Shown here piece after piece: positions 15,295 through 33,388 of a stretch of 49,724 nucleotides of DNA (positions are counted from its first letter, which is position 1; every line of letters begins with the position of its first letter). A program made the translations under genes and the position numbers. Source of the DNA: an uncultured Oscillospiraceae bacterium. Its GTDB lineage: Bacteria > Bacillota > Clostridia > Oscillospirales > Oscillospiraceae. A model generated the notes under the pieces. It made no database searches and had not been told where the DNA came from. It was given only the letters and a program-made list of their open reading frames with translations. The stretch lies in NCBI GenBank assembly GCA_947632155.1, contig CANROF010000012.1, positions 1 through 49,724 of the forward strand. The letters run 5' to 3'.

Positions 15295-15346
15295 ACTTTC
15301 CCTCACATTAAGAATCGAACGGAATCGGGTGATTTCTCATATACAC

Positions 15347-17028: not shown

Positions 17029-17222
17029 TGTCGAAAAAGCCCTGACGGGCTTTTCCGACAAGGGGAACGTGCGGAAAATTTTCGCTGAATTTTGCGAAAT
17101 TCAGCGTAAATTTTCCTGCTGTCGCCCTGCGCGCGCCCCGCAGGGGCACACTTGGGCGACAAAAGGAATTTTTTCCAAGGCACATGTCCTTGGAAAAAAT
17201 ATTGAATTTGAGTTTTTCGACA
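17029..17222 (+). repeat. Four-hairpin structured repeat, copy 2
   Basis: 194 bp, closely similar to copy 1 (1717-1910) and to the reverse strand of copy 3 (40131-40321). Here the terminal inverted repeats are longest: CTGCCTGTCGAAAAA is matched exactly on the opposite strand at the right end. The last hairpin is a perfect TTTTTTCCAAGG / CCTTGGAAAAAA stem. It sits between the start of one - strand gene and the end of another, so it cannot be a simple terminator for a + strand gene. Confidence 0.88.
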
Positions 17223-17225
17223 GGC

Positions 17226-17253
17226 AGGGCGGCGGACAGGGTCCGCCGCCCGG
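17226..17253. repeat. 28-bp direct repeat, right copy
   Basis: Exact second copy of 16996-17023. Its hairpin ends 7 bp from the surface-protein stop codon, so on the - strand it may also serve as that gene's transcript end. Confidence 0.9.
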
Positions 17254-17259
17254 TTCCTA

Positions 17260-20200
17260 TTACTGCTTTACATGCCGGCCCTTGCGGCTGACAATGCGAT
17301 TTTTGGAGAAGAGCAGATACGCGATGGCAAGGAGCGCCACAAAGGACATGCCGGACAGGGACAGCCACATAGCCATGTGCCTCTCATCGCCGGTATTCGG
17401 GAGCTCCGCCAGAGGAATTTCCGGATCGGGGATCTCCTCCCAGGGCTCGTCGTCCTCGGGCGTCCAGCGCCCTCTGTGATTCTGGAAGCGCACCTCGGAG
17501 CGCACAGCGTCCATGATCTCTCCGGTTGTGCCCTGGGCAACGGTGGTGTAGCCGTCCTGGTTGGCGTCCAGCTCCTCCACCGTGAACTGTGTGCCCACGG
17601 GGATCTGACGGCCCCACATGACCTCGCCGCTTCTCAGCGTGAACTCCGCAACGCCGTTCACGAACTCCATGCCGCCGTAGGTCCCGTTCAGAGGCTCGCT
17701 CAGCGTCACGCGGAAGTGGAATTCTCTGTTGGGCTCTCCCTCCGAGCCGGTCACCAGCTTGCGGACCGCCAGCGGGCCGGACACCGGCTCCACGGTCTGG
17801 ACATCCCTGGTGTTCAGGAACGCCGCTCTGGCCGTGCCGCCGTCGGGGATGGTGCCGGTGCTGCCGTTCTCCGTCGTCACATAGCCGTCCTGGTTGGCCT
17901 CCGCCTCGGTGACCGTGTAGGTGATGCCCGCGGGCAGGCCCGCGGCCGAGCGGCTCTGGCCGTGGCGCAGGGTGAATTCGGCCACGCCGTTGGTGAAGGT
18001 CATGCCGCCGTAGACGCCGTTCAGAGGCTCGCTCAGTGTCACGGTGAAGTGGAAGCTCGTCATGTTGCTGGTGACATTGCCGGAAACCGTCTTCGTCACC
18101 GTCAGGTTCCCGGTGCCGGGCCGCGTGTATGTGTTGGTGACCGTTACATTGGTGACCCTGCGGGCCTCCACGGTGACCTGGCCGCCGCCGGTGACATCGA
18201 GGATATAGCCCTCGACCTGGGTGTTGGCCTCAGTGACGGTGTAGGCGCCGGGCTTGAGGTCCTTCAGCGTGACGCTGCCGCCGGCCGCCAGCACGAAGGA
18301 CGCGCTGTATCCGTCGGGCCCGGTGACGGTGAAGGCGAAGGTCTTGCCCTCCAGCGCCTCGCCGCTGCCGATGACCTCCTTGGTGACGGTGAGGCTCCCG
18401 GTCTGCTCCGTGGGATTCTCGGGGATCTCCGTGGCGACCTCGGGGTTGTTGCCAACCCGGACAAAGGCCTGGTTGACGACCTTGCCGGCCACAACCGCGT
18501 TGGCGTTGACCCTTACCACCAGGGTCACGGTGCCGGAAGCGCCGGTGGGCTGATCGGCGAAGGTCCAGGTGACGGTGTGGGTCGCCGCGTCATAGACGCC
18601 GCCGTTACTGGCGCTGACAAAGTCCACGCCGCGGTCCAGCGGGTCACGGACGGTGACGGTGGCCGTACCGGTATCATCGTTGATCCAGGTGATGCGGTAG
18701 GTGATCTCGTCGCCAACCCTCACGGTTTCCCCGTCGCCCGGGGTAACCTCGGTCTTGTGCGGCTTCTCGTCCGTGGGGTTCTCGGGAATCTCGGTGGCCT
18801 GCTCGGGGTTATTGCCCACCTTGACGAAGGCTTGGTTCACGACCTTCATGTCGTCCTCAAGGGCCTCGGCGTTGACCTTGACCACCAGCCTCACAGCGCC
18901 GGAGGCGCCGGCGGCCTGGTCGGGCAGGGTCCAGGTGACGGTGTGGGTTGCCGCGTCATAGACGCCGCCGTTGTCCGCGCTGACGAAGTCCACGCCCACA
19001 TCCAGCGGGTCGCGGATGGTAACGGTGGCAGCCTCGTTCTCGTAGTTCTGCCAGGTGATCTCGTAGGTAATCTCGTCGCCCACGCTGACGTGCAGGCCGT
19101 CGCCCGGGGTGACCTCGGTCTTGTGCGGCTCGCCGGTGGGATTCTCGGGAATCTCGGTTTCCACCTCGGGGTTATTGCCAACCCGGACGAAAGCCTGGTT
19201 GACGACCTTGCCGGCCACGGTCGCCTGGGCATTGACCCTGACCACCAGGGTCACCGCGCCGGAGGCTCCGGCGGGCTGATCGGCGAAGGTCCAGGTGACG
19301 GTGTGGGTCGCCGCGTCATAGACGCCGCCGTCGCTGGCGCTGACGAAGTCCACGCCCACATCCAGCGGGTCGCGGACGGTGACGGTGGCAGCCTCGGTTT
19401 CATTATTCTTCCAAGTGATGCGGTAGGTGATGGCGTCGCCCACGCTGACATACTCGCCGTCGCCCGGGGTGACCTCGGTCTTGTGAGGCTCGCCCTCCGG
19501 CAGGTCGTTGACGAACTTTGCGGTCACTGTGCCGCCCGTGGGAATCCTGCCGGTATCTCCGGTGGCGCTGGTGGCGTAGCCGTCCTGATTGGCCTCCGCC
19601 TCCGTCACCGTGTAGGTGGTGCCGGAGGGCAGGTTCCGGGCGGTCTTGCTCTGGCTGTGGCTGAGGGTAAACTCGGCCACGCCGCCATTAAAGGTCATTT
19701 CGCCATAGACGCCGCTGACGGTCCTGTCGCTGAGCGTCACGGTGAAGTGGAATTCCCTGGTCTTGTCACCCACGCCGGTGACGGTCTTGGTGACGGTCAA
19801 ATTGCCGGTGGAGGGTCCCGGCGGCGGGGTAGTGGGCTTGTAGTTGGTAAACTCCGCCAGGGCGTTGCCGCTCTCCGGGATGACGCCTTCGGCGCCGGTG
19901 GCGCTGGTGGTATAGCCGTCCTGATCGGCCTCCGCCTCCGTCACCGTGTAGGTGGTGCCAGAGGGCAGGTTCCGGGCGGTCTTGCTCTCACCGTGGCTGA
20001 GGGTAAACTCGGCCACGCCGTTTGTGAAGTCCATGTCGCCGTAAGTACCGGTGACGGTCCTGTCGCCGAGGGTCACGGTGAAGTGGAATTTCCTGGTCCT
20101 GTCGCCGGAGCCGGTGACGGTCTTTTTGACGGTGAGTCCGGCAGTGACGGGGTTCTCCACCGGAGTGAGCTCCGTCGCGTCCTTGTCGCCGATCTTGACG

Positions 20201-23200
20201 CTCGCGCCGTTCTTGACCTTGGTCACGGCGTCCGCGGTGACCCGGGCCTTGACCCAGACCATGCCTCTGGCGCCGGCCTCCGCGGTAAACGTCCAGGTGA
20301 TGCTCTGGCCATTGTGGGTCAGCACGCCGTTGGCGGCGTCGCCATAGACGAGCTCGCCGTTGTCTCCCGCCGTCACGACGCCGGCGGCCACATATTCAAG
20401 GCCATCGCTCATGGTGTCGGTGAGGACGACCCTAACTTGGGTTTCTTCAGTGTTCTGCCAGGTGACGGTGTAGGTGATCTCGTCGCCCACGGTGACCTCC
20501 GGGCCAACCTTGACGTTGCCTTTGGTCGTCACGGTGACCTTTCGGTCGTTGATCTCGGCCTCGTCCTTCACGGGCTTGGTGGGGTTGGGGATGATTTCGG
20601 TGAGGAGCTTGGCATCGTTGCCAACCTGCACACCGCCCTGGTTCAGAATCCGGTAATCATCTTCACCGGTTTCACTTTCCTTGAAGCTGCCCGTTTCATT
20701 GTAGGTGTGCAGCCTATCCGCGTTTTCGTTGACGATAACGGAGAAGTACACATCGCCCTTATACTGGGCGGGGACACCCTTTCCGGTAATACCGATGGTC
20801 CAGGTGATGGTGCGGGACGCTTTATCGTAGGAAATCGTAACCTTGACTTCCTCACCATCAAGTGTGGCCGTGCCGCTGGCTGTCTGCTCCGCGGCGCTAA
20901 GCTTCACACCCTCAAACTCGGCGCTCACGAAGTCCACGCCGGGGTCCAGCTCATCGGTGACGGTGACCACGGCCTCTCCGTCCTTGTAATTGTTCCAATG
21001 AATGGTGTAATCCACCTGGTCGCCGGGCTTGACCAGCATACCCTCGCCGGGGCTGACCTCGGTCTTCTTAAGCTCGGGGGTGGGGTTCTCCACAATGCCG
21101 GTGTAGGCGCTGCTGTCGCCCACGGTGACCTTGGCCTGGTTGTCGATCTTGCCCGCGGGGGTGGCATTGGAGTTGACCTTTACCATTAGAGTCACGGCGC
21201 CTTCGCTGTTGGGCGCGCAGTCAAGCAGCGTCCAGGTGACGGTGTGGGTAATCTCATCATAGATACCGCCGTTGTCCGCGCGGACGAAGTCCACACCGGG
21301 GTCAAGCGCGTCGGTGATGACGACCTTGGCCGGCTTGTCATAGGCGTTCTTCCATTTGATGGTATAGGTGACTGCATCGCCCACATTGACCAGCGGCCCG
21401 ACAACGGTGTTGTCCGCACCTGTCTTGGGTTTGAGCTCCGGGTTGGTAGAGGCTCCGGCCTTAGTTTCGGTTTTCTCGGGGATCGGGTTCTCCACTATGT
21501 CGGTGTAGATTTTGGTGTCGTTGCCGACCTGGACGCTGGCGCGGTCCACGACCTCGTGATCCTTGCCGTCGTTGGTGTTGGGCGTATCGCCCGTGCCGTA
21601 CTGCCAGTAATTGACGGCCTTGCTGTTGACCTTCACGTAGAGGTCCACCCAGCCCTCGGAGAGGGACGGCTGCACGCCAAGATTCCAGACAACGCAATGG
21701 TTCGGGGTGTGATCGGAGCTTTCCCCGTTGAAATACTGGATAACGGGAATATTTTGACTTACTCCCGCGCCGTTTGCCGGCAGGGTGACCGTCTGCTCAG
21801 TATGGCAGTCCGAACCGTCGGCGGCGTTCAGCGTCATCCCGTTAAACACGGCTCTCACGAAGTCCACGCCGGGGTCCAGCGGGTCCTCGATGACGACGGC
21901 GGCGGATTCATCCTTATAATTCTGCCAGTGGATGCGGTAGTGAATCTCGTCGCCCACCTGGACCTGCTGGCGGTCGCCGGGAGCGGCCTCCTCCTTCTTC
22001 GGGCCCACGGGGTTCTTCACGATGTTGGTGTGAATCTCGGGGTCGTCGTTGAACTGGACGGAGGCGCGGTTCTGGACAAGCTGTCCGCCCTCGGACTCAA
22101 TACCGCCCTCCTTGCGGTAGTCCTCGTCCACAAATGTGCCGCCCCCAACCAGCGCGCGCTGGGTGACCAGGACGGTCACGGTAACGCTGCCGGCGGTCTT
22201 GGCGTTTTCTCCGGTAAGCTTCCAGGTGACGGTGTGGGTGCCCTCATCATAGACACCGCCGTCGCTGGCGCTGACGAAATCCACGCCGGGGTCCAGCTTA
22301 TCCGTTACGGTGACGGATTCCAGCGTCTCGCCCTCCTCAAGGGTGATTCGGCTGTCCCAGGTAACGGTATAGGTGACCTTTTCACCCACATTCACCAGCT
22401 CCCCGTCGCCGGGGTCAGTCTCGGTCTTTTCGGTCTTGGGGGTGGGGTTCTCGACGGTCTTGGTCTGCTGCTCGGGGTCGCCGTTGACCTGGACGTAGGC
22501 GGTGTTGTCCACCCAGCCCACGGGCGTGGCGGAGCTGAGCACCCGCACCTCCAGTGTCACCGTGCCCTCAGCCCCGGCGGGCTGCACACCAAGATTCCAG
22601 GTAACGGTGTGGGTCGCGGCATCATAGACGCCGCCGTTTTCTGCTCTGACGAATGCCACATTCGGATCCAGCGGGTCGCGGATGGTAACGGTGGCGGGGA
22701 CGTCCTTATAGTTCCGCCAGGTGATCTCGTAGGTGATCTGGTCGCCCACATAGACCAGCGGGCCGTGATACTTGCCGTCATCGCCGGGCGTCAGGTTGGC
22801 GTCGCCGACTGTGACATCATCGCCCTCGGCGCGGTCAATGTTCGTCTCCGTCTTATCCGGCTGGCCCACGGGGTTGACTATGGTGTTGGTGTAGTAGCTG
22901 TTATCCGCCACGCGGACCGTGGCGCGGTTGCGTACCATGTAGTCGTCGGGATTGGCGGGAACGGGCGCGTCGGCCACGCCGTCGCCGTCGTAATCCCACC
23001 ACTTGGCCGCTCTCCCGTTCACCCTGACGGTGAGGGTCACGCTGCCGTGTTCATTGGCGCCCTTCTTGCCCAGGTCCCAAATCACCACATGACCATTGTC
23101 CACCGTGGCGGGATTTTGCGTGCCGTAAATCCCGGCAAGGGCCGCGTCGGCCTGCTCCTTGACCGCGTAATGCACGCCGCCTTCGGTGCTGTCAACGTAG

Positions 23201-26200
23201 TCCACACCGTCGTCCAGCGGGTCGATGATGACAACGCGGGCGGTATCGCCGGTGGTGTTGGCCCACTCGATCGTATAGGTGATGGTGTCGCCCACCTGGA
23301 CGCCGGGCTGAGAGCCGGTGCCGTCGCCGGTAGGCCTTGAGGAGTCGCCGTTGATGGCGGTTTCGGACTTGCTTTTGTTGAACGTGTTGACGAAATTGGC
23401 GGACTCCTCGTAGGTGCCCGTGTTGCCGAAGACGGAGTACACGCCGTTGTAGTTGGTGTTGGGCTTCATCTCGGTCTGGTCCTTCGTCGCATAATTCTGG
23501 TCCTCGCCGTACACGCCGAAGTGGACGGTGGGGCTGGTGATATAGCGGCCTATATTCCGGATGTAACCGGATCCCTCGCCCTCGTAGTGCAAATCGCGGA
23601 GCACGCCGTCCTTGAAGAAGTAGTGGCGCACCTGATTGCCGCCGATGTCCTCGTCGCAACCGCCTTCACCCAAGGGTTTGCAGCTGGGATTGTCTCCCAC
23701 ATCGTGTGACAGCCCTGTGTCCGTGCTCATTTGCTTACCTTCATCCCAGAGCCAAAACGTGGACGATCCATCAGGAACGCCCGCCGGCTGGTGGTGGTTG
23801 TCGCCTGGCGCGTCCGCGACCATAGTGGAATAGGCCTCCCACACGACGGCGTTGGTGTGGTGGAACGGCTCGTAATGGAAATACGTCTCCTCATTCAGAT
23901 TGCCGTCCTGGTCCACCGCCCACATCAGGCCCTTTTCGGTCTTATTAGCATCGTATGTGTTCGGATACGCCCCGCCGCCGTACCAGCCGTAGGTCGTACC
24001 ATCATTATAGTAGACGGGAATCAACTGGGCGCCGGGGCGGTAGGTGCTGGTGGAGCCCACCTGCTGGGTGTGGCTCACCTCCTTCAGCGAATAGCCCTTG
24101 TCCATCTGCGCGTCGGTGAGCCTTTCGGTGACGCGGTACACGGTGGCGTTGGGGATGCCGCTGAACAGCAGCGCCTGCCCGTTCTTCAGGGTAAATTCGG
24201 CGGTGCTGGCCGCGATCGTTTCATTCGTCAGATCGGCGGGGAAGTAATCCGGGCGGTCGGCGGAGGGGATGATCTGGTCGTAGAGGTCGCCCTCAGTCAG
24301 AGTACTCCCCATAGTGCCAGAGCCGTCGTTCGGATTGGCGTTCTTGCCGAATTCCAGCTCCTTCGTCCAGTAGGCGCTGGAGGTGCGGTAGGGCGTGGAG
24401 ATGGTGATCTCGGTGGTGTCGGAGACATTGGGGTCGATGGTCAGCAGCTCAAAATAACTAATGGATTTATCGCTATAATTGCTGATATTAAATTCAGAAT
24501 TCCTGATGGGGTCAAGGTTATTCCATGCAGAGGTATACTCGTCCTCGGACACCAGCCAAACCTTGGCGGCCTTAAAGGTGCTCCCATCAATTTTAACATC
24601 ACTACCAGAAATTACGCCGTTCTCGTCCACGTCGTTATTGTGGTAGACGCGGAAGCCTGTATCAGATCCGCCGGCCTCGTTCGTCTTGTTCTTCCCTATG
24701 TAGACATAGTACACGGTGCCGAAATAATTTTTGATGGTGTTATCGGCATAGACGTACCCCACGCCGTCAGAAGCGGGGATCACGCGCTTTCCGTTCTCAT
24801 CCACCATGGCCTTTTGGCCGTCCTCGGTCTGGAGGAACAACTGGCCGTCCAGCTCCAGGTCGATGTAGTGGAACTGGCGCTGCCAGCTCTTGGCAGTCTC
24901 GTTCCACCGCACCACCACGGCGCTTTGCGTGCCGGTGATGCCTTTGATAAAGACCTGGAAATTGAATTCCTCGTTGTTGTCCACTTCGCCGGTCAGGGAC
25001 TCGACGGTCTTCGTCACCAGCAGGGTGGTGTCCGCCACGTACAGGCGGCCGTTGTTGCCCAGGTAGGTGTTCACGATGATGTCGTCAGCTCTGGCGCTGG
25101 AGGCGGTGCTGATGGTGGGCATATAGTAGTTGTTGGCCGTGCGGGTGACGTTGTCGGAGTAGAAGCCCCAGGTCAGGTTCTCATAATCGGTATCCGGGTA
25201 GCGTTTATCATAATAGCTCTTGATTATGGCCTGATCATCAGTGCTCGAATAAGTGCCGCCCTTGTTTTGAACGGCCTGAGACAGGTCGCCGACGCGCAGC
25301 CCGCCGGGCTTGGCGCTGACGACCCATTCGCCCTCGGGGGTAGAAGTAGGCTTATCCGTCGGCGCTTTCCCTTTTTCAACACCCATATACCAGCCGGTAT
25401 CGGGGTCGATTTCTGTGCCGATGTACTCCTTGCCGCGGGTGGGATCATTCGTTTCCGTGTAGGACAGATAGGGGTAGTCCTGGGTGTTCTTGCCGCTCAC
25501 ATCATGCCACACCAGCATATCGCCGTTGGAGATTCCGGCGGCGGAGTAGGCGGAGCCGAACTCGCTGCCCTTCCGGGTGATGACATACTGGGTAAATTCG
25601 GCCTTGTTGTTCGCTTCCAGATTATAAAATTCGATGGCCAGGAAGTAATAACCGTCGGAGGAGAACGGATCATCCGTGCTTTCATCGTCCGGCTTGGTCA
25701 CGTCTTTAAGGATGTCGTTCTTGAGCAGAACGATGTCACCCTCTTTGGGGGACATATCGGTTACTTTTGAAGCAATTCCCGCCGCGTCGGTTCCCTCATT
25801 CAGCACCGCCAGCAGCCTGCCGCCGGAGTTGGCGGAGGGCTCCACCTTCTTCCAATCGGTCCCGTCATACTGATACGCCGCTCTGTACAGGGGCAGCGCT
25901 TTTTCGAACAGGTAGTAGCGGTTGTCGGAGGCCGGGGAGAAGGAGGTCACCGGGTCGCCGTAGGTATAGTCGATGTTGGTGGTGGCGTAGTCGCCGTAGC
26001 GGTTCAGGGGGTTATACCAGTTGGAGAAAAATTCCACGTTCCCCTGGGCGACGCCGCGGGCGGCCGCGGCCTCCGCCGTGGTGATCTTGTTTTTCAGGAC
26101 GTACTCCGGGCTGATGGCGCCGGCCATGTTGATGCGGTTGTTCTCCAGCACCTCGTCGCTGACGCCCACGGTGTAAAACACGCGCAGCGGGAAGCTGCTG

Positions 26201-29200
26201 GCCTTATAGCCGGGATCGTCAGAATCCAGATTGGTGGTGTACGACCACTGGTCATCGTGTCCCGCTGTCGGGCTGCCCAAATTAATGGACACGGTGCGCA
26301 GAGGCAGCATGTTCACCGGGATGTTGATCCACAGGGCCTCGTCGTAGTTGGTGTCGGTCAGCACGTCGCCCAGAGAGTCGTTATAATCGCCGCTGTCCTC
26401 CACCCAGATTCGCAGGTCGGAAAGGGCGTACACGCCGGGGGTATCCTTATCCGCACCTTCCGGAACATCTGTTCCATAGGCGGGGTTCATGTGCAGCTCG
26501 CTGCGGTCAACGTCTTCATCCGCGATGCGATAGAAGGTGTACACGGTGTTCTGCATCTTTGTAACGGCGTCGCCAGGTAAAGCTGTGTTCATCTCATAGA
26601 GCGAGGGCACAAACTGGGCGGCGGTCCTGTAATTGACGCGGTATACCCAGCCCTCATTCCACATTTGATCGGATGTCTTGCCGGAAGGAGCTGTTGGCTG
26701 ATAGTCCGCCGCAGTAGGCTCACCGTTGTACCAGCCCTCGGGAAGCTCTTTTGTTCCGGCTCCCTGATCGGTAGCTTTCATGTACGCGTCGTTCCACTGG
26801 TAGTCGTACACGGCGGTCTTGACGATGTTGTAGTACTCACCGAACAGGGCCAGTCCCTTGACGTCCTTCACCTCCATGTACTTGCCCATGGGGTCCATGT
26901 AGGTGACGGAGTCCTCCACGCCCAAATCGTTGGCTCCGGCCACGGGGGTGAAGAGGGGCGCGGTGATGGCGTCCACGATCTCCTCAAAGGTATTGGCCAG
27001 GTCCTGCGTCGCATCGCCCGCAGTCGAGGCATAATACGCCTTGGTCACATAGTCATAGCTCAAGTCACCCAGCTTGAAGCCTGCCTTGCCTGCCGCCGTT
27101 GTGGCTTCAGCCTTTGTGGGGATGTAGAAATCCCCGTTGCCCGTCCCTGTACCGAGCTTTTGCTCAGCATATACGCGCCAAAAGCTGCTGTGGCCAGGGC
27201 TTGGGTAGTTGTCTGTAAACTTTTTATCGTCGTAAGTATCTCCTTGCTCCTGATTGATCGGGCTGCCGTCTTTGTATACCTTAATTTTGCCCTTGACATT
27301 ATTGGTGAGGAAGTTCCAGCCGCTCTGAATGGAGCGGAAGGTGGTAAGGCCGAGTTCGTTAGCGCTCTCCGCAGTCTTCCATGTCTCCCATGCCTGGATC
27401 GCTTTCTGGATTCCCTCTACGGTCATATCGCCGACTGTATAATCGTCGTAATAGGTATTATTTCCGGTATCTCCGGCTGTTTGGGTCAAATAACCGCTAT
27501 TCTCCAGCCAGTCAATATTAAAGCATTTTCCCGGGTTCATCATGGCGGGGTTACTGGTTATGGCCGCCTTTGTGGCGTCTTTAGCATCAAAGCCCGCGTT
27601 GAAGCCCTGGGTCGTGGGGTCGGGCATATCCACCGTGATGGTGTAGATGCTCCAGTCGTCTGTGCCGCTGACATTATAAGCGCTCTTTACCGCCTGCTTG
27701 TAATAGGCCGTCGTCAGCAGGTAGTTAAAAATCATGTAGGCCTCGTTATCCCGATACTGATTCGCCAGTGCCTGCATGGCTGTCAGGCTGTCTCCTGTGA
27801 CTTTGGTCGTCTTCGGAAACTCATCATTATATAGTACATTTTCCTCGTAGCTGATTTTTTTGTCTCCTGCGTCAGCGCTGGCCACAGCCTCGTAGTACAA
27901 ATCTCCCTTAGTCGCTTTTTCAGCCTCATCTGACGCAGAGCGTTTCGGGTCCTCTGTCCCCTTGTCTCCCTTCACGGCGAGGAACTGGTTCCATGACGTG
28001 CCTTTCCTATCGCTATTATTAAGGTCTGTTCCGTCCGGATCATTTTTCTGGACAAAAGAGACGCCCTTGTAGCTGAAGTCGCAGACAAATCCCATGGCGT
28101 TGCTCGTAACACCATTACTCGTTGTCGGGGTCAGCCAGTTGTCCAGCGCGTCGGTAACGGCGCCGTCGGTCAGCATCACCAGGGAGGGGACGCACTGATA
28201 GACCTGGTTGCCCACCTGCTCGGTCTTGTTGGCGTTCAGCAGCTCCTGCATACCCTGATAGATACCGGCCTGGATATTGGTGGTGCCGTTGCTGTAGGCG
28301 GTGTATTTATTATCGCCGCAGTTGTTCCAGCCATTCCAGCCAGTACCGTTCTTATACCAAATGTGCCCGGGGTTGTCGGAATCTGTCGTGTCGTCTGCAT
28401 TCAGCTCGCATATCTCATTGTTGACGAACACCCAGCCGCCTTCGCCTTTGCCTCCGTCTTCCTGACTTAAATTTCCGCCATCAGGTTGATCTATTTTTTT
28501 CTTATCGTTGTTCTTGCTCCAGCCGGCCGTTAAGTACTGCGTATTGTTACTGGGGTCTATTATTCCGTCATCCTCATAATCTTCGACCGCATCTTTGCCG
28601 GGCTCATAGTGCTTCATGGGCAGGATGGTCACAGCCGTGCTGTTGCCATGGTACCTGCTGGTACCATTAGACGTCTCTTGCTCCTCGTTCTCCCCTTTGT
28701 TCGCGCCGTCGCCAAACAGCACCACAGAAACCTCGTTATACTGACTGGCCAGCATCAGCATATCAATGGCGTTGTTGATAGCCGCCACTGTTTTGGCGAT
28801 ACGCTGAGAATCCCACAAGCGTTGCCCTTCATCCGCGGTGCTGGTGCTGTTATACATCGACCCGGAGTTATCGAACACGATCACCGTGCGCACGGGGGGA
28901 ACGCCGACAATCTCCATGCTCGACCCAAGGGCGCTGTACACGTGCAGGAAATCCTCGTCCAGCTCGATTGAGCCCGTCACGCCGTCGTCGGCCAGGTCAA
29001 GCGTCAAGGTTTTCCCGTCCCAGTCGTCGTCCTTATCATTGGTAATATCGCCCAACGCGAACACGGACTTATCGGACCAGAGCCGCCCGGCGTAGCGGGT
29101 GTTCCCCGAGAAGTCCAGCATCTGCTTATATGTATCCATGGTGCTGGGGTCGGCCTGCCGGGTCACGCCGGCGGTGCCGGGCTCCCCCGCCGCGTGGGCG

Positions 29201-29307
29201 GTGGGGATGACCAACCGCAGCCCCTCGCACAGCGAGAGCACCATACACGCGCACAGCAAAATCGCTGTGAGTCTGCGCGGCAAGGCACACCTTTTAAAAC
29301 GCTTCAT
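17260..29307 (-). CDS. Giant LPXTG-anchored surface protein (VWA, DUF11 repeats, pilin-like domains)
   Basis: About 4,015 residues. The start MKRFKRCALPRRL (ATG 29307) has GGGAGG 8 nt upstream and begins a signal peptide ending near AHAAG. A VWA domain (~130-600) has an intact MIDAS motif DNSGS near 145 and VMLTDGAVTD near 376. A pilin-like domain (TLLVTKTVESLTG) lies near 1430. From ~2000 to ~3630 there are about ten DUF11-type repeats (VGDxITYxITWxN ... DPLDxGVDFVSA ... GGVYDxATHTVTW). Two Spy0128-like domains interrupt them near 3060-3270, and one SpaA-like plus two Spy0128-like domains follow (3638-3950). YTVTEAE matches the glutamate box of isopeptide-forming domains. The C-terminus is LPNTG near 3970, a hydrophobic segment and a basic tail, so sortase anchoring is expected; no sortase gene is in the window. 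Likely an adhesin or fibre. A recombinase-bearing inverted-repeat segment lies just upstream. Confidence 0.9.
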   Translation of the reverse strand: MKRFKRCALPRRLTAILLCACMVLSLCEGLRLVIPTAHAAGEPGTAGVTRQADPSTMDTYKQMLDFSGNTRYAGRLWSDKSVFALGDITNDKDDDWDGKTLTLDLADDGVTGSIELDEDFLHVYSALGSSMEIVGVPPVRTVIVFDNSGSMYNSTSTADEGQRLWDSQRIAKTVAAINNAIDMLMLASQYNEVSVVLFGDGANKGENEEQETSNGTSRYHGNSTAVTILPMKHYEPGKDAVEDYEDDGIIDPSNNTQYLTAGWSKNNDKKKIDQPDGGNLSQEDGGKGEGGWVFVNNEICELNADDTTDSDNPGHIWYKNGTGWNGWNNCGDNKYTAYSNGTTNIQAGIYQGMQELLNANKTEQVGNQVYQCVPSLVMLTDGAVTDALDNWLTPTTSNGVTSNAMGFVCDFSYKGVSFVQKNDPDGTDLNNSDRKGTSWNQFLAVKGDKGTEDPKRSASDEAEKATKGDLYYEAVASADAGDKKISYEENVLYNDEFPKTTKVTGDSLTAMQALANQYRDNEAYMIFNYLLTTAYYKQAVKSAYNVSGTDDWSIYTITVDMPDPTTQGFNAGFDAKDATKAAITSNPAMMNPGKCFNIDWLENSGYLTQTAGDTGNNTYYDDYTVGDMTVEGIQKAIQAWETWKTAESANELGLTTFRSIQSGWNFLTNNVKGKIKVYKDGSPINQEQGDTYDDKKFTDNYPSPGHSSFWRVYAEQKLGTGTGNGDFYIPTKAEATTAAGKAGFKLGDLSYDYVTKAYYASTAGDATQDLANTFEEIVDAITAPLFTPVAGANDLGVEDSVTYMDPMGKYMEVKDVKGLALFGEYYNIVKTAVYDYQWNDAYMKATDQGAGTKELPEGWYNGEPTAADYQPTAPSGKTSDQMWNEGWVYRVNYRTAAQFVPSLYEMNTALPGDAVTKMQNTVYTFYRIADEDVDRSELHMNPAYGTDVPEGADKDTPGVYALSDLRIWVEDSGDYNDSLGDVLTDTNYDEALWINIPVNMLPLRTVSINLGSPTAGHDDQWSYTTNLDSDDPGYKASSFPLRVFYTVGVSDEVLENNRINMAGAISPEYVLKNKITTAEAAAARGVAQGNVEFFSNWYNPLNRYGDYATTNIDYTYGDPVTSFSPASDNRYYLFEKALPLYRAAYQYDGTDWKKVEPSANSGGRLLAVLNEGTDAAGIASKVTDMSPKEGDIVLLKNDILKDVTKPDDESTDDPFSSDGYYFLAIEFYNLEANNKAEFTQYVITRKGSEFGSAYSAAGISNGDMLVWHDVSGKNTQDYPYLSYTETNDPTRGKEYIGTEIDPDTGWYMGVEKGKAPTDKPTSTPEGEWVVSAKPGGLRVGDLSQAVQNKGGTYSSTDDQAIIKSYYDKRYPDTDYENLTWGFYSDNVTRTANNYYMPTISTASSARADDIIVNTYLGNNGRLYVADTTLLVTKTVESLTGEVDNNEEFNFQVFIKGITGTQSAVVVRWNETAKSWQRQFHYIDLELDGQLFLQTEDGQKAMVDENGKRVIPASDGVGYVYADNTIKNYFGTVYYVYIGKNKTNEAGGSDTGFRVYHNNDVDENGVISGSDVKIDGSTFKAAKVWLVSEDEYTSAWNNLDPIRNSEFNISNYSDKSISYFELLTIDPNVSDTTEITISTPYRTSSAYWTKELEFGKNANPNDGSGTMGSTLTEGDLYDQIIPSADRPDYFPADLTNETIAASTAEFTLKNGQALLFSGIPNATVYRVTERLTDAQMDKGYSLKEVSHTQQVGSTSTYRPGAQLIPVYYNDGTTYGWYGGGAYPNTYDANKTEKGLMWAVDQDGNLNEETYFHYEPFHHTNAVVWEAYSTMVADAPGDNHHQPAGVPDGSSTFWLWDEGKQMSTDTGLSHDVGDNPSCKPLGEGGCDEDIGGNQVRHYFFKDGVLRDLHYEGEGSGYIRNIGRYITSPTVHFGVYGEDQNYATKDQTEMKPNTNYNGVYSVFGNTGTYEESANFVNTFNKSKSETAINGDSSRPTGDGTGSQPGVQVGDTITYTIEWANTTGDTARVVIIDPLDDGVDYVDSTEGGVHYAVKEQADAALAGIYGTQNPATVDNGHVVIWDLGKKGANEHGSVTLTVRVNGRAAKWWDYDGDGVADAPVPANPDDYMVRNRATVRVADNSYYTNTIVNPVGQPDKTETNIDRAEGDDVTVGDANLTPGDDGKYHGPLVYVGDQITYEITWRNYKDVPATVTIRDPLDPNVAFVRAENGGVYDAATHTVTWNLGVQPAGAEGTVTLEVRVLSSATPVGWVDNTAYVQVNGDPEQQTKTVENPTPKTEKTETDPGDGELVNVGEKVTYTVTWDSRITLEEGETLESVTVTDKLDPGVDFVSASDGGVYDEGTHTVTWKLTGENAKTAGSVTVTVLVTQRALVGGGTFVDEDYRKEGGIESEGGQLVQNRASVQFNDDPEIHTNIVKNPVGPKKEEAAPGDRQQVQVGDEIHYRIHWQNYKDESAAVVIEDPLDPGVDFVRAVFNGMTLNAADGSDCHTEQTVTLPANGAGVSQNIPVIQYFNGESSDHTPNHCVVWNLGVQPSLSEGWVDLYVKVNSKAVNYWQYGTGDTPNTNDGKDHEVVDRASVQVGNDTKIYTDIVENPIPEKTETKAGASTNPELKPKTGADNTVVGPLVNVGDAVTYTIKWKNAYDKPAKVVITDALDPGVDFVRADNGGIYDEITHTVTWTLLDCAPNSEGAVTLMVKVNSNATPAGKIDNQAKVTVGDSSAYTGIVENPTPELKKTEVSPGEGMLVKPGDQVDYTIHWNNYKDGEAVVTVTDELDPGVDFVSAEFEGVKLSAAEQTASGTATLDGEEVKVTISYDKASRTITWTIGITGKGVPAQYKGDVYFSVIVNENADRLHTYNETGSFKESETGEDDYRILNQGGVQVGNDAKLLTEIIPNPTKPVKDEAEINDRKVTVTTKGNVKVGPEVTVGDEITYTVTWQNTEETQVRVVLTDTMSDGLEYVAAGVVTAGDNGELVYGDAANGVLTHNGQSITWTFTAEAGARGMVWVKARVTADAVTKVKNGASVKIGDKDATELTPVENPVTAGLTVKKTVTGSGDRTRKFHFTVTLGDRTVTGTYGDMDFTNGVAEFTLSHGESKTARNLPSGTTYTVTEAEADQDGYTTSATGAEGVIPESGNALAEFTNYKPTTPPPGPSTGNLTVTKTVTGVGDKTREFHFTVTLSDRTVSGVYGEMTFNGGVAEFTLSHSQSKTARNLPSGTTYTVTEAEANQDGYATSATGDTGRIPTGGTVTAKFVNDLPEGEPHKTEVTPGDGEYVSVGDAITYRITWKNNETEAATVTVRDPLDVGVDFVSASDGGVYDAATHTVTWTFADQPAGASGAVTLVVRVNAQATVAGKVVNQAFVRVGNNPEVETEIPENPTGEPHKTEVTPGDGLHVSVGDEITYEITWQNYENEAATVTIRDPLDVGVDFVSADNGGVYDAATHTVTWTLPDQAAGASGAVRLVVKVNAEALEDDMKVVNQAFVKVGNNPEQATEIPENPTDEKPHKTEVTPGDGETVRVGDEITYRITWINDDTGTATVTVRDPLDRGVDFVSASNGGVYDAATHTVTWTFADQPTGASGTVTLVVRVNANAVVAGKVVNQAFVRVGNNPEVATEIPENPTEQTGSLTVTKEVIGSGEALEGKTFAFTVTGPDGYSASFVLAAGGSVTLKDLKPGAYTVTEANTQVEGYILDVTGGGQVTVEARRVTNVTVTNTYTRPGTGNLTVTKTVSGNVTSNMTSFHFTVTLSEPLNGVYGGMTFTNGVAEFTLRHGQSRSAAGLPAGITYTVTEAEANQDGYVTTENGSTGTIPDGGTARAAFLNTRDVQTVEPVSGPLAVRKLVTGSEGEPNREFHFRVTLSEPLNGTYGGMEFVNGVAEFTLRSGEVMWGRQIPVGTQFTVEELDANQDGYTTVAQGTTGEIMDAVRSEVRFQNHRGRWTPEDDEPWEEIPDPEIPLAELPNTGDERHMAMWLSLSGMSFVALLAIAYLLFSKNRIVSRKGRHVKQ

Positions 29308-29407
29308 AATCATTTCCTCCCAGTAAGAAATAATTCGCCAGGGTTTTTTATGTTTTTGCGCATTTTTTTGCTGTTTTAAGCATTCTTTCACAGGCCCCCG
29401 CTCCCCG

Positions 29408-29432
29408 TTCGCAGAGTGGGCCACTCTGCGAA
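29408..29432. repeat. Inverted repeat, left copy (candidate recombination site)
   Basis: A 25-bp palindrome with arms TTCGCAGAGTGG and CCACTCTGCGAA around a single central G. Read on the opposite strand it equals the right copy (30879-30903), whose centre is C; with one flanking base the pair is a 26-bp perfect inverted repeat. It can also be read as 9-bp arms TTCGCAGAG/CTCTGCGAA around a 7-bp spacer TGGGCCA, the size usual for tyrosine-recombinase core sites. It lies about 100 bp upstream of the surface-protein start. Confidence 0.8.
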
Positions 29433-29433
29433 T

Positions 29434-29474
29434 TCAGGGGGCGGGGAGCGCTTTTCGCGGCCCCCGCCCCCTGA
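29434..29474. terminator. Strong GC hairpin downstream of the recombinase gene
   Basis: A perfect 13-bp stem TCAGGGGGCGGGG / CCCCGCCCCCTGA between the recombinase stop and the left inverted repeat. No T run follows on the - strand, so it is at best a partial terminator between the recombinase and the surface gene. CGCTCCCC (29399-29406) could pair with GGGGAGCG inside it as an alternative fold. Confidence 0.5.
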
Positions 29475-29516
29475 TTTTCCCGCCGAATCCCGCGGGGCTT
29501 TCCCGGCGCGCGCGGC

Positions 29517-29544
29517 GTCTGACGAAAAAGTCTGACGGCGAATT
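29517..29544. repeat. Paired short repeats, left of recombinase (candidate arm sites)
   Basis: GTCTGACG occurs at 29517-29524 and 29530-29537 (13-bp spacing). The second copy is the start of AGTCTGACGGCGAATT (29529-29544), which recurs exactly at 30709-30724 on the other side of the recombinase gene. It ends right at the recombinase stop codon. Confidence 0.75.
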
Positions 29545-30657
29545 CTACAGGCCCACCGCCGACAGCTTGTCCATATTTTCCCTTTTCAGCTCCAGGGAGG
29601 AGTGGACGTACCGGTCCAGCGTGATGCTGGTGTTGGCGTGGCCCAATATTTCAGAAAGGCTCTTCAGCTCAAAGCCCGCCTCCACGCACCGGGTGGCGAA
29701 GGTGTGGCGAATCGTGTGGAAGTGTACCCCCTCCAGGCCGCACTCCTTTGTATATTTGGCCAGCCGCTTCTGCACCAGCCGGGGCTCCATGAAACGCTCC
29801 GTGCCCGTCAGAAGAAACGCCGCCGGACAGTGCGGGTCAAACCGTCCGCACAGCCCGGCGGCGCTGTCATTGAGGGGTATCATCCGCACCGACGTGCCGC
29901 TTTTGGGGCTGCCGATGACGATTTTCGTCTTTCCCGGGCCCGCGTGGTCCAGGTCCCGTATTCGCTGCATGGTGGAGCCGACGCGGATCATCCTGTCGCC
30001 CAGGGACACGTCCTCCCACCTGAGCGCGCACAGCTCGCCGATGCGAAGCCCCGTGAGCAGGGCCAGGAGCACCCCGAACTTGCACGCGTCCATGTCCGTT
30101 CGGAGGAAGCTTACGAGCCTGCGCTGCTCCTCCTGGGTGAGTACCCGGGCCTCCCGCTTCGGCTCCCTGGGAAAAATCATCTCCACCGCCGGGAGGGCGC
30201 CGGGAAGCTGCTTTTCCGTGTACCGCAGGACGGAGCGCAGGACGGTCAAAATATCCCGCACGGTCTTCACCGACAGCCCCTCGCCCAGAAGCTCCTCCTT
30301 GAATCGCTCCGCCAGCGCCGTACTGAGCCCCTGGGGGAAGCAGCCGCCCAGCTTCGGGAGGATGTGCTTGGTCATCACGGAGTCGTATTTAATGAAGGTA
30401 GATTCCTTCACCCGCCCCCTTTCCGCCCGCAGCCATTCCCCGCAGTAATACGCGAACCGGTGGCGGCCTTCCGCCGCCGGGGGCGCGCCGGTGAGCAGCG
30501 CCGCCTTGCACCGCGCGGCCTTCTCCCGGGCCTCCCGGTAGGTCCTGCCGTAGCAGGAGCCGTATTTGAGCTTCCCGGAGAGCTCGCGCCCCTTGACATA
30601 CCGGGCCTCCCAACGTCCGTCTTTCCTTTTATAAATGTTTTCGCCTTTTCGTGCCAT
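29545..30657 (-). CDS. Tyrosine recombinase / integrase
   Basis: 370 residues. Residues 1-50 (MARKGENIYKRKDGRWEARY) form an arm-DNA-binding domain of the Tn916 Int kind, followed by a SAM-like core-binding domain. The catalytic domain is complete: Arg in LTGLRIGELCALRW near 203, HTIRHTF near 314, the GHAN His, and the nucleophile Tyr in DRYVHSS near 347. I start at ATG 30657, which has GGAGG 8 nt upstream; the longer frame upstream lacks a ribosome site. No excisionase, relaxase, phage or cargo gene is adjacent. The gene is centred between a 26-bp inverted repeat (29408-29432 and 30879-30903), which suggests it inverts or moves this 1.5 kb segment. Its partner in context is the giant surface-protein gene. 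Confidence 0.93.
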   Translation of the reverse strand: MARKGENIYKRKDGRWEARYVKGRELSGKLKYGSCYGRTYREAREKAARCKAALLTGAPPAAEGRHRFAYYCGEWLRAERGRVKESTFIKYDSVMTKHILPKLGGCFPQGLSTALAERFKEELLGEGLSVKTVRDILTVLRSVLRYTEKQLPGALPAVEMIFPREPKREARVLTQEEQRRLVSFLRTDMDACKFGVLLALLTGLRIGELCALRWEDVSLGDRMIRVGSTMQRIRDLDHAGPGKTKIVIGSPKSGTSVRMIPLNDSAAGLCGRFDPHCPAAFLLTGTERFMEPRLVQKRLAKYTKECGLEGVHFHTIRHTFATRCVEAGFELKSLSEILGHANTSITLDRYVHSSLELKRENMDKLSAVGL

Positions 30658-30691
30658 AGATTTTACCTCCCTAAATAATTGGATATGAATT

Positions 30692-30697
30692 ATTATA
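30692..30697 (-). promoter_or_regulatory. Probable -10 of the recombinase gene
   Basis: TATAAT on the - strand, 35 bp before the recombinase ATG. No good -35 lies at the right distance. The region where it should be is occupied by the repeat AGTCTGACGGCGAATT (30709-30724), so the promoter may be weak and controlled by the recombinase or another protein binding there. Confidence 0.5.
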
Positions 30698-30708
30698 CTC
30701 CCCCAGGC

Positions 30709-30735
30709 AGTCTGACGGCGAATTTGACGGTGAAT
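30709..30735. repeat. Paired short repeats, right of recombinase (candidate arm sites)
   Basis: AGTCTGACGGCGAATT (30709-30724) is an exact copy of 29529-29544. Within and after it TGACGGCGAAT (30713-30723) and TGACGGTGAAT (30725-30735) repeat with 12-bp spacing. These resemble the direct-repeat arm sites bound by the N-terminal domain of Tn916-type integrases. Confidence 0.7.
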
Positions 30736-30822
30736 ACGCATCGTTCGGCGCTCAGGCGTCCCCCCTCGCTGAACCGCGCTCCAAAAAAATGAAAAAATTT
30801 ATTCAAGGCGGACATTTATTTA

Positions 30823-30851
30823 TTGAATTTAGAAAACGGTTGTGCTATACT
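30823..30851 (+). promoter_or_regulatory. Outward-facing promoter inside the inverted-repeat segment
   Basis: -35 TTGAAT (30823-30828), exact 17-bp spacer, -10 TATACT (30846-30851). It points right, out through the right inverted repeat 27 bp away, into the nrdD terminator and the antisense strand of nrdD; no gene lies in its path. If the segment 29408-30903 were inverted it would point at the surface-protein gene, giving a 5' leader of about 150 nt. Confidence 0.7.
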
Positions 30852-30878
30852 GATACCGTTATAGGCTCAAAAAGTCCG

Positions 30879-30903
30879 TTCGCAGAGTGGCCCACTCTGC
30901 GAA
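30879..30903. repeat. Inverted repeat, right copy (candidate recombination site)
   Basis: Exact reverse complement of 29408-29432 (central base C here, G there), extended by one flanking G/C pair into a 27-bp palindrome. It abuts the A run that forms the tail of the nrdD terminator. No other copy of the arm TTCGCAGAGTGG was seen in the window. Confidence 0.8.
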
Positions 30904-30904
30904 C

Positions 30905-30936
30905 AAAAAAAGGCCGCCTCGCATTTTGCGAGGCGG
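30905..30936 (-). terminator. nrdD terminator
   Basis: A 10-bp stem CCGCCTCGCA / TGCGAGGCGG with a 3-nt loop, followed on the - strand by GCC and a run of seven T. It starts 30 bp beyond the nrdD stop. Confidence 0.9.
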
Positions 30937-30966
30937 TCATTTTGTTTTTAATGGGGAATTTCCGGC

Positions 30967-33165
30967 TTACAGGTGCAATACCCTGTCCCTTATCTCCTGG
31001 GTCCGGCCCTGGTTCCAGAACTGGGTGCCGATGTAGCCGCAGGTCCGGCGGGCGACGTTCATCTTGTTCTGGTCGGTGTTGCCGCACTTGGGGCACTTCC
31101 AGATGAGCTTGCCGTCCTCCTCCACGATCTGGATCTCGCCGTCCCAGCCGCAGACCTGGCAGTAGTCGGACTTGGTGTTGAGCTCGGCGTAGATGATGTT
31201 GTCATAGATGAACTTCATCACCTGCAAAACGGCCTCCAGGTTATTCTGCATGTTGGGGACCTCCACGTAGCTGATGGCGCCGCCGGGGGAGAGCGCCTGG
31301 AACTCGGACTCAAACTTGAGCTTGGTGAAGGCGTCGATGTTCTCCGTGACGTGGACGTGGTAGGAGTTGGTGATGTAGCCCTTGTCGGTGATGCCCTCGA
31401 TGATGCCGAAGCGGCGCTGGAGGCACTTGGCGAACTTGTAGGTGGTGGACTCCAACGGCGTTCCGTAGAGGGAGTAGTCGATATTCTCCGCCAGCTTCCA
31501 CTCCTTGCACTTGTCGTTCATCTTCTGCATGACGGCGAGGGCGAAGGGCGTGGCCTCCGGGTCGGTGTGGGACTTGCCGGTCATGTACTTGACGCACTCG
31601 TAAAGGCCGGCGTAGCCGAGGCTGATGGTGGAGTAACCGTTATAGAGGAGCTTGTCGATGGGCTCGCCCTTCTCAAGGCGCGCCAGGGCCCCGTACTGCC
31701 AGAGGATGGGGGCCACGTCGGAGGGGGTGCCCAGCAGCCGCTCGTGGCGGCACCGGAGGGCCCGGTGGCACAGCTCCAGGCGGTCCTCAAAAATCTTCCA
31801 GAACTTGTCCGTGTCCCCGCCGGAGCTGAGGGCCACGTCGGGCAGGTTAATGGTGACCACGCCCTGGTTGAAGCGACCGTAGTACTTGTGCTTGCCCGGC
31901 TCGTAGTTGCCGGCGTTGGCGATGTTGCCCACCCCCGCGTCAGTGAAGCGGTCCGGGGTCAGGAAGGAGCGGCAGCCCATGCAGGTATAGACGTCGCCCT
32001 TGAGCTCCAGCATCTTCTTCTCGCTGATGTAGTCGGGCACCATCCGGCGGGCGGTGCACTTGGCCGCCAGCTTGGTGAGCTCCCAATACCGGGACCCCTC
32101 GGTGATGTTGTCCTCCTCAAGGACGTAGATGAGCTTGGGGAAGGCGGGGGTGACCCAGACGCCGTCCTCGTTCTTCGTCCCCTCGTAGCGCTGGAGAAGG
32201 ACCTCCTTGATGATGAGGGCCAGGTCCTCCCGCTCCCGCTCGTTCCGGGCCTCCCCCAGGTACATGAAGACGGTGACAAAGGGGGCCTGTCCGTTGGTGG
32301 TCAGCAGGGTCACCACCTGGTACTGGATGGTCTGGACGCCGCGGCGGATCTCCTCCAAAAGGCGGTCCTCCACGATCTTCTGTATTTTCTCCTCCGTGGG
32401 GTTGACGCCCAGGGTCACCAGCTCCTGCTCCACGACCTTGCGGAGCTTCCGGCGGGAGACGTCCACAAAGGGCGCCAGGTGCGTAAGGGAGATGGACTGG
32501 CCGCCGTACTGGTTGGAGGCCACCTGGGCGATGATCTGCGTGGCGATGTTGCAGGCCGTGGAGAAGGAGTGGGGCCGCTCGATGAGCGTCCCGGTGATGA
32601 CCGTGCCGTTTTGCAGCATGTCCTCCAAATTCACCAGGTCGCAGTTGTGCATGTGCTGGGCGTAGTAGTCCGTGTCGTGGAAGTGGATGATGCCGGCCTC
32701 GTGGGCCTCCACGATGTCCCGGGGCAGCAGGATGCGCTCGGAAAGGTCGCGGCTGACCTCGCCGGCCATGTAGTCCCGCTGGGTGGAGTTGACCACCGGG
32801 TTCTTGTTGGAGTTTTCCTGCTTGGCCTCCTCGTTGCAGCACTCGATGAGGGAGAGTATCTTTTCATCCGTGGTGTTGCTCTGGCGCACCAGGGACCGGG
32901 TGTAGCGGTAGGTGATGTAGTTCTTGGCTACCTCAAAGGCCCCGTGGGCCATGATCTGCTTCTCCACCAGGTCCTGGATCTCCTCAACGGAGGGGCTGCG
33001 GCCCATGTTCTCGCAGTCCAGCTCCACGGACTCGGAAATGCGCTTTATCTGGAGGGGCGTCATGCGGGCCGTCTCCTCTACGGACATGTTGGCTTTGCTT
33101 ATGGCGTTCTCGATTTTTTTGATGTCGAATTCCATCTCGACGCCGTTTCTCTTTATTATTCTCAT
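30967..33165 (-). CDS. nrdD: Anaerobic (class III) ribonucleoside-triphosphate reductase
   Basis: Reduces ribonucleoside triphosphates to deoxy forms by glycyl-radical chemistry, with formate as usual reductant. The 732-residue protein has an N-terminal ATP-cone (MRIIKRNGVEMEFDIKKIEN, residues 1-95) for allosteric control. The catalytic barrel follows, then a C-terminal zinc site of paired CxxC (CQVCGWDG and CPKCGN) and the radical loop RRTCGYIG, with the radical glycine near residue 712. ATG 33165 has GAGGTGAT 5-10 nt upstream. The oxygen-sensitive enzyme supports an anaerobic host. Its activase gene nrdG lies apart at 14770-15294. A promoter and a pair of NrdR-like boxes precede it. Confidence 0.95.
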   Translation of the reverse strand: MRIIKRNGVEMEFDIKKIENAISKANMSVEETARMTPLQIKRISESVELDCENMGRSPSVEEIQDLVEKQIMAHGAFEVAKNYITYRYTRSLVRQSNTTDEKILSLIECCNEEAKQENSNKNPVVNSTQRDYMAGEVSRDLSERILLPRDIVEAHEAGIIHFHDTDYYAQHMHNCDLVNLEDMLQNGTVITGTLIERPHSFSTACNIATQIIAQVASNQYGGQSISLTHLAPFVDVSRRKLRKVVEQELVTLGVNPTEEKIQKIVEDRLLEEIRRGVQTIQYQVVTLLTTNGQAPFVTVFMYLGEARNEREREDLALIIKEVLLQRYEGTKNEDGVWVTPAFPKLIYVLEEDNITEGSRYWELTKLAAKCTARRMVPDYISEKKMLELKGDVYTCMGCRSFLTPDRFTDAGVGNIANAGNYEPGKHKYYGRFNQGVVTINLPDVALSSGGDTDKFWKIFEDRLELCHRALRCRHERLLGTPSDVAPILWQYGALARLEKGEPIDKLLYNGYSTISLGYAGLYECVKYMTGKSHTDPEATPFALAVMQKMNDKCKEWKLAENIDYSLYGTPLESTTYKFAKCLQRRFGIIEGITDKGYITNSYHVHVTENIDAFTKLKFESEFQALSPGGAISYVEVPNMQNNLEAVLQVMKFIYDNIIYAELNTKSDYCQVCGWDGEIQIVEEDGKLIWKCPKCGNTDQNKMNVARRTCGYIGTQFWNQGRTQEIRDRVLHL

Positions 33166-33193
33166 TCGTATCACCTCGCGCGAAAGTACTAAA

Positions 33194-33222
33194 AATATAC
33201 CACATATTCCGCCGTGGGTCAA
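33194..33222 (-). promoter_or_regulatory. nrdD promoter
   Basis: On the - strand: -35 TTGACC (33217-33222), 17-bp spacer, -10 TATATT (33194-33199), about 30 nt before the nrdD ATG. Confidence 0.8.
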
Positions 33223-33229
33223 GGGGGAA

Positions 33230-33278
33230 TCCATACATGTTGTGTTTTTGGGATTTGTCACAACACTATATGGTGTAG
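33230..33278 (-). promoter_or_regulatory. Pair of NrdR-like boxes upstream of nrdD
   Basis: Two matches to the NrdR consensus ACACWATATWTWGTGT: TCCATACATGTTGTGT (33230-33245, 11 of 16) and ACACTATATGGTGTAG (33263-33278, 12 of 16). They are 33 bp apart, about three helical turns, as is typical of paired NrdR sites (family knowledge). They lie just upstream of the -35. Confidence 0.55.
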
Positions 33279-33388
33279 CGGACACAAATTCGACAAAATC
33301 GGCGGAAAACCGGCTGAAATTGCGCTCAATTCTTCGTTTCCCCGTGTCGAAATCTGTAGAAAATTGTATATTTGCACAAAAAAGTATC

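Follow-up and report, generated by a model that had tools for sequence, protein, structure and literature searches.

The contig analysed here (CANROF010000012.1; 49,724 nt, referred to below as the window) comes from an uncultured Oscillospiraceae bacterium and carries on its minus strand a very large gene predicted to encode a surface protein. Upstream of this gene, a segment of about 1.5 kb (29407-30904) holds the gene of a tyrosine recombinase between two inverted copies of a short sequence, and beyond the segment lies nrdD. An earlier note on this DNA had proposed that the segment is an invertible ON/OFF switch carrying its own recombinase. We describe the anatomy of the locus and compare it with related loci in other genomes.

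The perfect 26-bp inverted repeat reported in the note to bound the segment proved exact. Its arms are 100% complementary over 26 nt, far beyond the longest perfect inverted repeat obtained from 300 base-shuffled pairs of 600-nt flanks (13 nt; mean 9.0). Compared as direct repeats, the same two sites, hereafter core sites, are 96% alike, and the central G/C asymmetry pointed out in the note falls on the centre of the presumed 7-bp overlap. The search for further palindrome copies that the note had suggested was run on the 2.5-Mb draft genome, and with up to 3 mismatches allowed just the two flanking copies were found. The idea that the recombinase also serves orphan sites in trans was considered and rejected: a third match to a 16-mer (contig C23, 1 mismatch) is single and lies inside an open reading frame (ORF), and no inverted partner was found in the 7 kb examined. 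The ends of 29407-30904 are thus inverted repeats, as expected of an inverton, and the overlap identity and swapped flanks described below suggest that recombination takes place at them.

The segment holds one complete recombinase gene with an intact frame, as the note had stated. Its product matches PF00589 Phage_integrase, which places it outside the serine resolvases and invertases. Residues R205, K252, H314, R317, H340 and Y350, which we take to be the catalytic residues of the family, were unchanged across 30 aligned recombinase sequences. An AlphaFold model of the protein (mean predicted local distance difference test score, pLDDT, 85.1; predicted template modelling score 0.69) placed strands at residues 9-12, 15-24 and 30-37 and a helix at 40-56 in an N-terminal block with pLDDT 56-86. 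Three strands and one helix are what is expected of an arm-binding domain of the IntTn916 type, and the Pfam arm-binding model gave a match that stayed below its cut-off. Further strands were predicted at 223-261. The best match among solved structures, both by sequence and by fold, was the Tn1549 integrase (6EMY/6EMZ/6EN0), and full-length lambda integrase also aligned structurally with the model.

The earlier note overlooked a promoter-like site inside the segment (30823-30851), which reads out across the right core site. A scan of 1.8 kb gave 3 promoter-like sites against 0.6 expected. By its consensus, the site would supply the internal promoter reading across one end that is typical of invertons. 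As assembled, it faces away from the giant LPXTG gene. The likely ATG of that gene is at 29307 (or 29313), preceded by GGGAGG and about 100 nt from the left core site, and the promoter scan found no minus-strand promoter-like site in the gap between them. Together with the LPNTG anchor, this bears out the description of a surface-protein gene about 100 bp from a site and lacking a clear promoter of its own. Coordinate arithmetic puts the -10 box about 150 nt from this ATG after inversion. Because the outward promoter points away from the giant gene, the assembled orientation reads as OFF.

Table 1. Features of the switch and its surroundings, in window coordinates.
Feature	Position	Strand	Basis
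nrdG-like activase (Fer4_12; name inferred)	14770..15306	-	domain scan; gene order in relatives
334-aa protein without family match; 70% relative on contig of second switch	15503..16507	-	sequence search
AP2-domain protein, same insert	16464..16979	-	domain scan
Presumed target: giant surface protein of about 4015 aa; signal peptide, DUF11/DUF7601/isopeptide-type repeats, LPNTG anchor	17260..29307	-	start possibly 29313
Left recombination (core) site; presumed 7-bp overlap TGGGCCA at 29417-29423	29407..29432	.	inverted repeat; overlap from within-locus identity, 73 loci
G+C-rich strong hairpin between recombinase stop and left site; possible insulator, no U run in window copy	29431..29477	.	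folding z -4.4
Left arm-type direct repeats CTGACGAA / CTGACGGC; spacing 13 bp, second near recombinase stop	29519..29539	+	motif scan
Tyrosine recombinase; predicted arm-binding, core-binding and catalytic domains	29545..30657	-	PF00589 Phage_integrase; alignment; structure prediction
Right arm-type direct repeats CTGACGGC / TTGACGGT; spacing 12 bp	30712..30731	+	motif scan
Outward promoter-like site TTGAAT-N17-TATACT, TG extension before -10	30823..30851	+	consensus scan; like element in 71/75 loci
Right core site; presumed overlap TGGCCCA (reverse complement of left) at 30888-30894	30879..30904	.	inverted repeat; within-locus identity
Two-way terminator-like hairpin just beyond right site, behind nrdD; would receive outward promoter reading	30912..30938	.	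hairpin scan
nrdD (anaerobic ribonucleotide reductase), right neighbour, convergent with outward promoter	30967..33285	-	protein family scan

We propose, with a probability of roughly 0.9, that the segment 29407-30904 works as a self-contained switch by promoter inversion, built from an integrase of the Tn916 type. The recombinase would bind the arm-type repeats inside both segment ends together with the two inverted core sites, and strand exchange across the 7-bp overlap would flip the segment. In the assembled state the outward promoter would fire into the nrdD terminator and leave the giant surface gene promoterless (OFF); after a flip the same promoter would stand about 150 nt upstream of that gene's ATG and drive its transcription (ON). 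Because all arm sites lie inside the segment, the substrate would have the same geometry in both states, and no directionality factor would be needed for the reverse flip. What we infer here from sequence is that the promoter is active, that the arms are bound, that the segment flips in this strain and that the giant gene is affected by it.

Relatives of the recombinase were collected to see how far this anatomy is conserved. Searching 60 related genomes turned up 13 close relatives at 44-81% identity outside the window, among them a second copy in the window's own genome, and a scan of contigs gave at least 572 stretches encoding relatives, of which the best 80 were kept as 79 loci. Once three duplicates had been removed, 90 loci were studied, the window included. 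An inverted-repeat pair scoring at least 13 lay near the recombinase at 77 of the 90, and the site motif was also present at 75; this last filter (77 to 75 loci) was our own choice. The sites were placed 14-221 nt past the recombinase stop (median 75) and 142-320 nt before its start (median 222). Among 18 more distant integrase loci used as controls, 15 had both sides available, and an inverted repeat scoring at least 13 was found in 1 of these (L015). Direct repeats of such a score were no commoner in the family (16/90 loci) than in the controls (3/15). A tree of 103 proteins put all 89 family rows on one side of a branch with support 99/92. A strict profile search located the family in 16 of 391 genomes of the class, the window's own included, with at most 5 candidates scored per genome and their sites unchecked.

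The core sites of 73 of the 75 site pairs were aligned. Their outer half (TCGCAGAGT and variants) is conserved, and their inner half is looser. In the inverted register, positions 7 to 13 of the two sites were identical within the locus at all 73 loci, while identity between loci was 0.29-0.46 at five of these positions and 0.82 and 0.56 at the ends; there were 63 distinct overlap sequences among the 73 loci. In the tyrosine recombinase family, 7 bp is the usual size of the strand-exchange overlap. Seven identical positions in otherwise variable sequence fit the prediction of such an overlap. A motif search within 260 and 400 nt at the loci without a recognised pair gave no pair with a mismatched overlap.

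An outward promoter-like site is common in the family. Between the recombinase start and the right site, a promoter score of at least 9.5 was reached in 71 of the 75 loci on the outward strand and in 1 of the 75 on the opposite strand; the shorter left end, scored in the same way, gave 2/75 and 6/75 on its two strands. As for the arm repeats, the 6-mer TGACGG occurred in the left end of 58 loci and in the right end (first 130 nt) of 65. These motifs share one strand and are often paired 12-13 bp apart, and few were seen on the opposite strand. Mobile-element recombinases are described in the part of PMC8138268 cited here as having arisen by gaining an arm-binding domain essential for mobility. 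In the present family, a recombinase of the arm-binding type, accompanied by arm-like repeats that are conserved, seems to work for a resident switch.

A universal terminator between the recombinase and the left site was also considered and rejected as a defining part, though hairpins there are common. This stretch had a folding z below -2 in 30 of 74 loci, and in 20 of 74 it had a stem of 7 or more pairs together with a U run of 4 or longer; a simpler hairpin scan found a stem with a T run in 15 of 75 loci and none in shuffles. In some relatives, hairpins like that at 29431-29477 may stop recombinase transcripts before the target.

If the segment inverts, homologous loci should be found in both orientations, and the earlier note had proposed looking for the flipped arrangement in relatives. 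When the 75 loci were compared with one another, 81 pairs had similar flanks, and in 28 of them the left flank of one locus matched the right flank of the other; some of the matches among the 81 pairs are short. Seven hand-picked pairs were aligned in full: five had the segment reversed and two had it in the same orientation. In L040/L041, both flanks are swapped around an 85% identical segment. In L038/L039, long blocks are 95.8-98.3% identical and the segment is reversed. For L039's genome, the second flank (89% identical) was located on a different contig, and the last 77 nt of this partner contig equal the first 77 nt of the L039 contig, in the recombinase-stop end. The shared 77 nt fits an assembly-graph fork as from a mixed population; a repeat could give the same. 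Of 150 sides, 11 had a contig end no more than 300 bp from a site, where 2.35 would be expected. The flipped arrangement is thus found between species, for relatives of the cassette, and both orientations of an inverton are seen there in the same sense. Together with the paired inverted sites, the outward promoter and the overlap identity, these opposite orientations support the switch that the note proposed. The comparison showed directly the anatomy and its conservation, the identity of the overlap within loci and the opposite orientations at homologous loci of other species. As for the window's target, sequence resembling its giant gene is found on the side that it has in the window (OFF) in L033, L035, L036, L037 and L052; in L083, a short stretch similar to it (150 bp, 78%) is on the promoter side.

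Several points weigh against this reading. No recognised site pair was found at 15 of the 90 loci. Among these, the contigs of L051, L096, L099 and L112 end inside the gene and those of L073 and L113 end close by, and L043 has a truncated recombinase beside what by eye is an apparent serine recombinase gene; the remaining eight have flanks but no motif-bearing pair. The promoter is recognised by its consensus, with 4 of 75 loci under the cut-off of 9.5. L077 and L092 have no arm motif at either end. Positions 4, 5 and 15 of the core sites are also identical within all 73 loci, yet they are conserved between loci (0.73-1.0), and the pair finder requires an exact 8-nt seed, which favours identical stretches. 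As to orientation, 53 of the 81 flank-matching pairs share one orientation, and at a 160-aa cut-off 18 of the 75 loci have outward genes on both sides while 17 are uncallable. No locus above 80% identity was found among the best 80 of at least 572 stretches, in a scan that may omit the window's own genome. The opposite orientations lie between species and are evidence that inversion has taken place, not of its frequency.

Another reading is that the element was once invertible and is now locked OFF in this strain, with the giant gene silent or driven from elsewhere. A single orientation is known for the window's species. Where one clear target could be called by rough ORF heuristics, loci were more often OFF than ON: 27 OFF, 13 ON, 18 both and 17 uncallable at 160 aa; 24 OFF, 13 ON, 21 both and 17 other at 120 aa; and 24 OFF, 10 ON, 14 both and 27 other at 200 aa. 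These counts are rough; L038 was misfiled at 160 and 120 aa by a spurious ORF hiding the surface gene. Against a locked state, the recombinase frame, its invariant residues, both sites, the arms and the promoter are all intact, and we consider this reading very unlikely.

The earlier note had named as its main alternative a minimal integrative element, that is, a recombinase gene with att-site ends that excises and integrates. The recombinase is nearest to the Tn1549 integrase in sequence and fold, and the near-identity of the window's sites as direct repeats also speaks for it. However, the sites are inverted in all 75 paired loci, and the best direct repeat scores at most 15 in 87 of the 90 loci (exceptions: window 25, L104 20, L110 17). 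In the direct register the overlaps of 72 of the 73 loci agree at 0, 2 or 4 bases out of 7, so that excision there would need mismatched strand exchange, and direct-repeat ends able to excise are absent from these loci. The window alone matches at 6 of 7, and its central G/C difference is the sole thing that separates inversion from deletion there. Some homologous loci differ by orientation; no search was made for sites lacking just the 1.5-kb segment. We regard an excising element as highly improbable, and for the family it is rejected on the sequence comparison. Least credible of all, to the point of being negligible, is that the inverted copies are mainly terminators or regulator-binding palindromes around a resident recombinase with no inversion: the right site does score as a terminator-like hairpin on the minus strand, but 72 of 73 loci have an overlap that is far from a palindrome, yet its inverted identity holds, and flanks are swapped at homologous loci.

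The switch and its presumed target appear to share one insertion in the chromosome. The end of nrdD was located in 23 of 34 genomes of the genus, the window's own included, and in all 9 relatives examined (of 22 with a match) an nrdG-like gene follows 42-415 bp past it. In the window, the spacing is about 15.6 kb (15309-30966) and is filled by the switch, the giant gene, the AP2-domain protein and the 334-aa protein. No clear direct repeats were seen by eye at the junctions of this insert. Because both the adhesin and the switch separate nrdD from nrdG, which are adjacent in relatives, the two appear, from this gene order, to have entered the locus together. In G019, G023 and G033, switches lie on contigs other than those with nrdD matches.

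A second switch was found in the window's own genome (L033, G000:C6:15500-33500). It is 70% identical, has different core sites, and precedes another giant surface protein, also in the OFF arrangement. The relative of the 334-aa protein on this contig, C6, carries one internal stop.

Putative targets of the wider family were surveyed by a Pfam scan of 20 neighbour proteins (19 hand-picked genes on the target side, and nrdD), five of which had no match. DUF7601 surface proteins lie beside switches in Blautia massiliensis (with an LPXTG anchor), in Blautia parvula and at the second copy of the window's genome; the DUF7601 match of the Lachnoclostridium An138 target was below threshold. The other target-side matches were two S26 signal peptidases, an AraC regulator, a SpoVT-like regulator, an FtsK/FHA protein, an Hsp70, a cation ATPase, a GHKL-domain protein, a helicase and a sub-threshold dynamin-like match.

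Some loci depart from the common layout. The right end of L051 (266-356 nt before the recombinase start) has three tandem copies of the core-site motif instead of one, and L038 and L039 also hold extra tandem copies. At L015/L046 (G036:C35), a stretch of about 80 nt that by eye encodes a signal peptide occurs in inverted copies on either side of a 36% identical recombinase; this is perhaps a switch between two surface genes.

Among 78 loci on contigs called viral, eight were listed at 38% identity or more, and three of these (L135, L138 and L140; family members at 40-43% identity) have paired family-type sites. By eye, L135 precedes signal-peptide proteins and L138 precedes an Hsp70-like gene, as does L115; both L135 and L138 look chromosomal or like mobile islands. 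L140, judged in the same way, has tail-like and lysis-like ORFs about 4-8 kb off, with serine recombinase genes between. The case for a phage origin of the cassette family is weak. A distant recombinase group at 24-29% identity was also seen on viral contigs (L171, L174, L176, L180, L182, L184, L189, L193 and L195, where L184/L189 and L193/L195 resemble near-copies). Its inverted repeats score 13-19 and are placed 229-395 nt after the stop and 35-56 nt before the start. This group is possibly a second type of self-contained inverton, in phages.

There is a broader idea, to which we give even odds: a lineage of Tn916-type integrases that kept its arm-binding domain and arm sites has become a portable, stand-alone ON/OFF promoter cassette, spreading among Clostridia before unrelated genes. 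If so, it would run against the rule that a tyrosine recombinase with arm binding is the mark of a mobile element, and the family calls into question the arm-binding domain as such a mark, a link drawn in the part of PMC8138268 cited above. The arms that make integrases directional would make the reaction symmetric here, because every arm site is inside the segment, and with the cassette, the part that arm sites play in the direction of tyrosine recombination could be tested on a single gene. In our view, phase variation is less well mapped in gut Clostridia than in Bacteroides. The family signature (an MxRKGENIYKRKDGRWEARY recombinase, TCGCAGAGT-type outer half-sites, YTGACGGC arms and an outward promoter) predicts switchable genes, giant adhesins included, directly from genomes.

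Several known systems resemble the switch in part. In Clostridioides difficile, as proposed for the window, a tyrosine recombinase (RecV) inverts a small segment that controls a large surface protein, CwpV (PMC2784873 and PMC5903667, each in part). RecV serves more than one switch, flagellar and cwpV, according to the part of PMC5903667 cited here. Unlike RecV, the window recombinase is encoded within the segment that it would invert. A search of the draft genome, which would miss very different sites, found no third copy of its site beyond the flanking two and so no sign of action in trans. In the cited part of PMC11892184, inverton group 139, with 32 of 33 members from Clostridia, is linked to a tyrosine-type recombinase/integrase (invertase group 35). 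That recombinase family is enriched there among nearby non-intersecting genes, and elsewhere in the same source intersecting and nearby genes are counted together. The likeness to our family concerns taxon and recombinase type as given in that part. Among literature titles and the beginnings of abstracts, which covered few subscription journals and preprints, none described, for Clostridia, an invertible promoter segment that encodes its own tyrosine recombinase, which is no proof of absence.

The closest parallels in design and in enzyme come from two other systems. In the Hin/fljBA system of Salmonella, an invertible segment of about 1 kb holds the recombinase and an outward promoter and flips the expression of a surface antigen; Hin requires Fis and an enhancer. 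The window recombinase, like Hin, is encoded inside its own invertible segment with an outward promoter, but unlike Hin, a serine recombinase, it is a tyrosine integrase with arm repeats. Direct arm repeats are carried by the ends of Tn916. The resemblance to the integrases of Tn916 and Tn1549 (IntTn916 subgroup; PMC8138268, in part) lies in the predicted arm-binding domain and in arm repeats about one helical turn apart; unlike those elements, the segment has no transposon cargo, its end sites are inverted with a conserved outer half-site, and they are apparently used for inversion. Recombinases occasionally lie within the invertible segment, and Hin is the example given, in the part of PMC5903667 cited above. 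The element in the window would work like Hin but with a tyrosine integrase of the Tn916 type.

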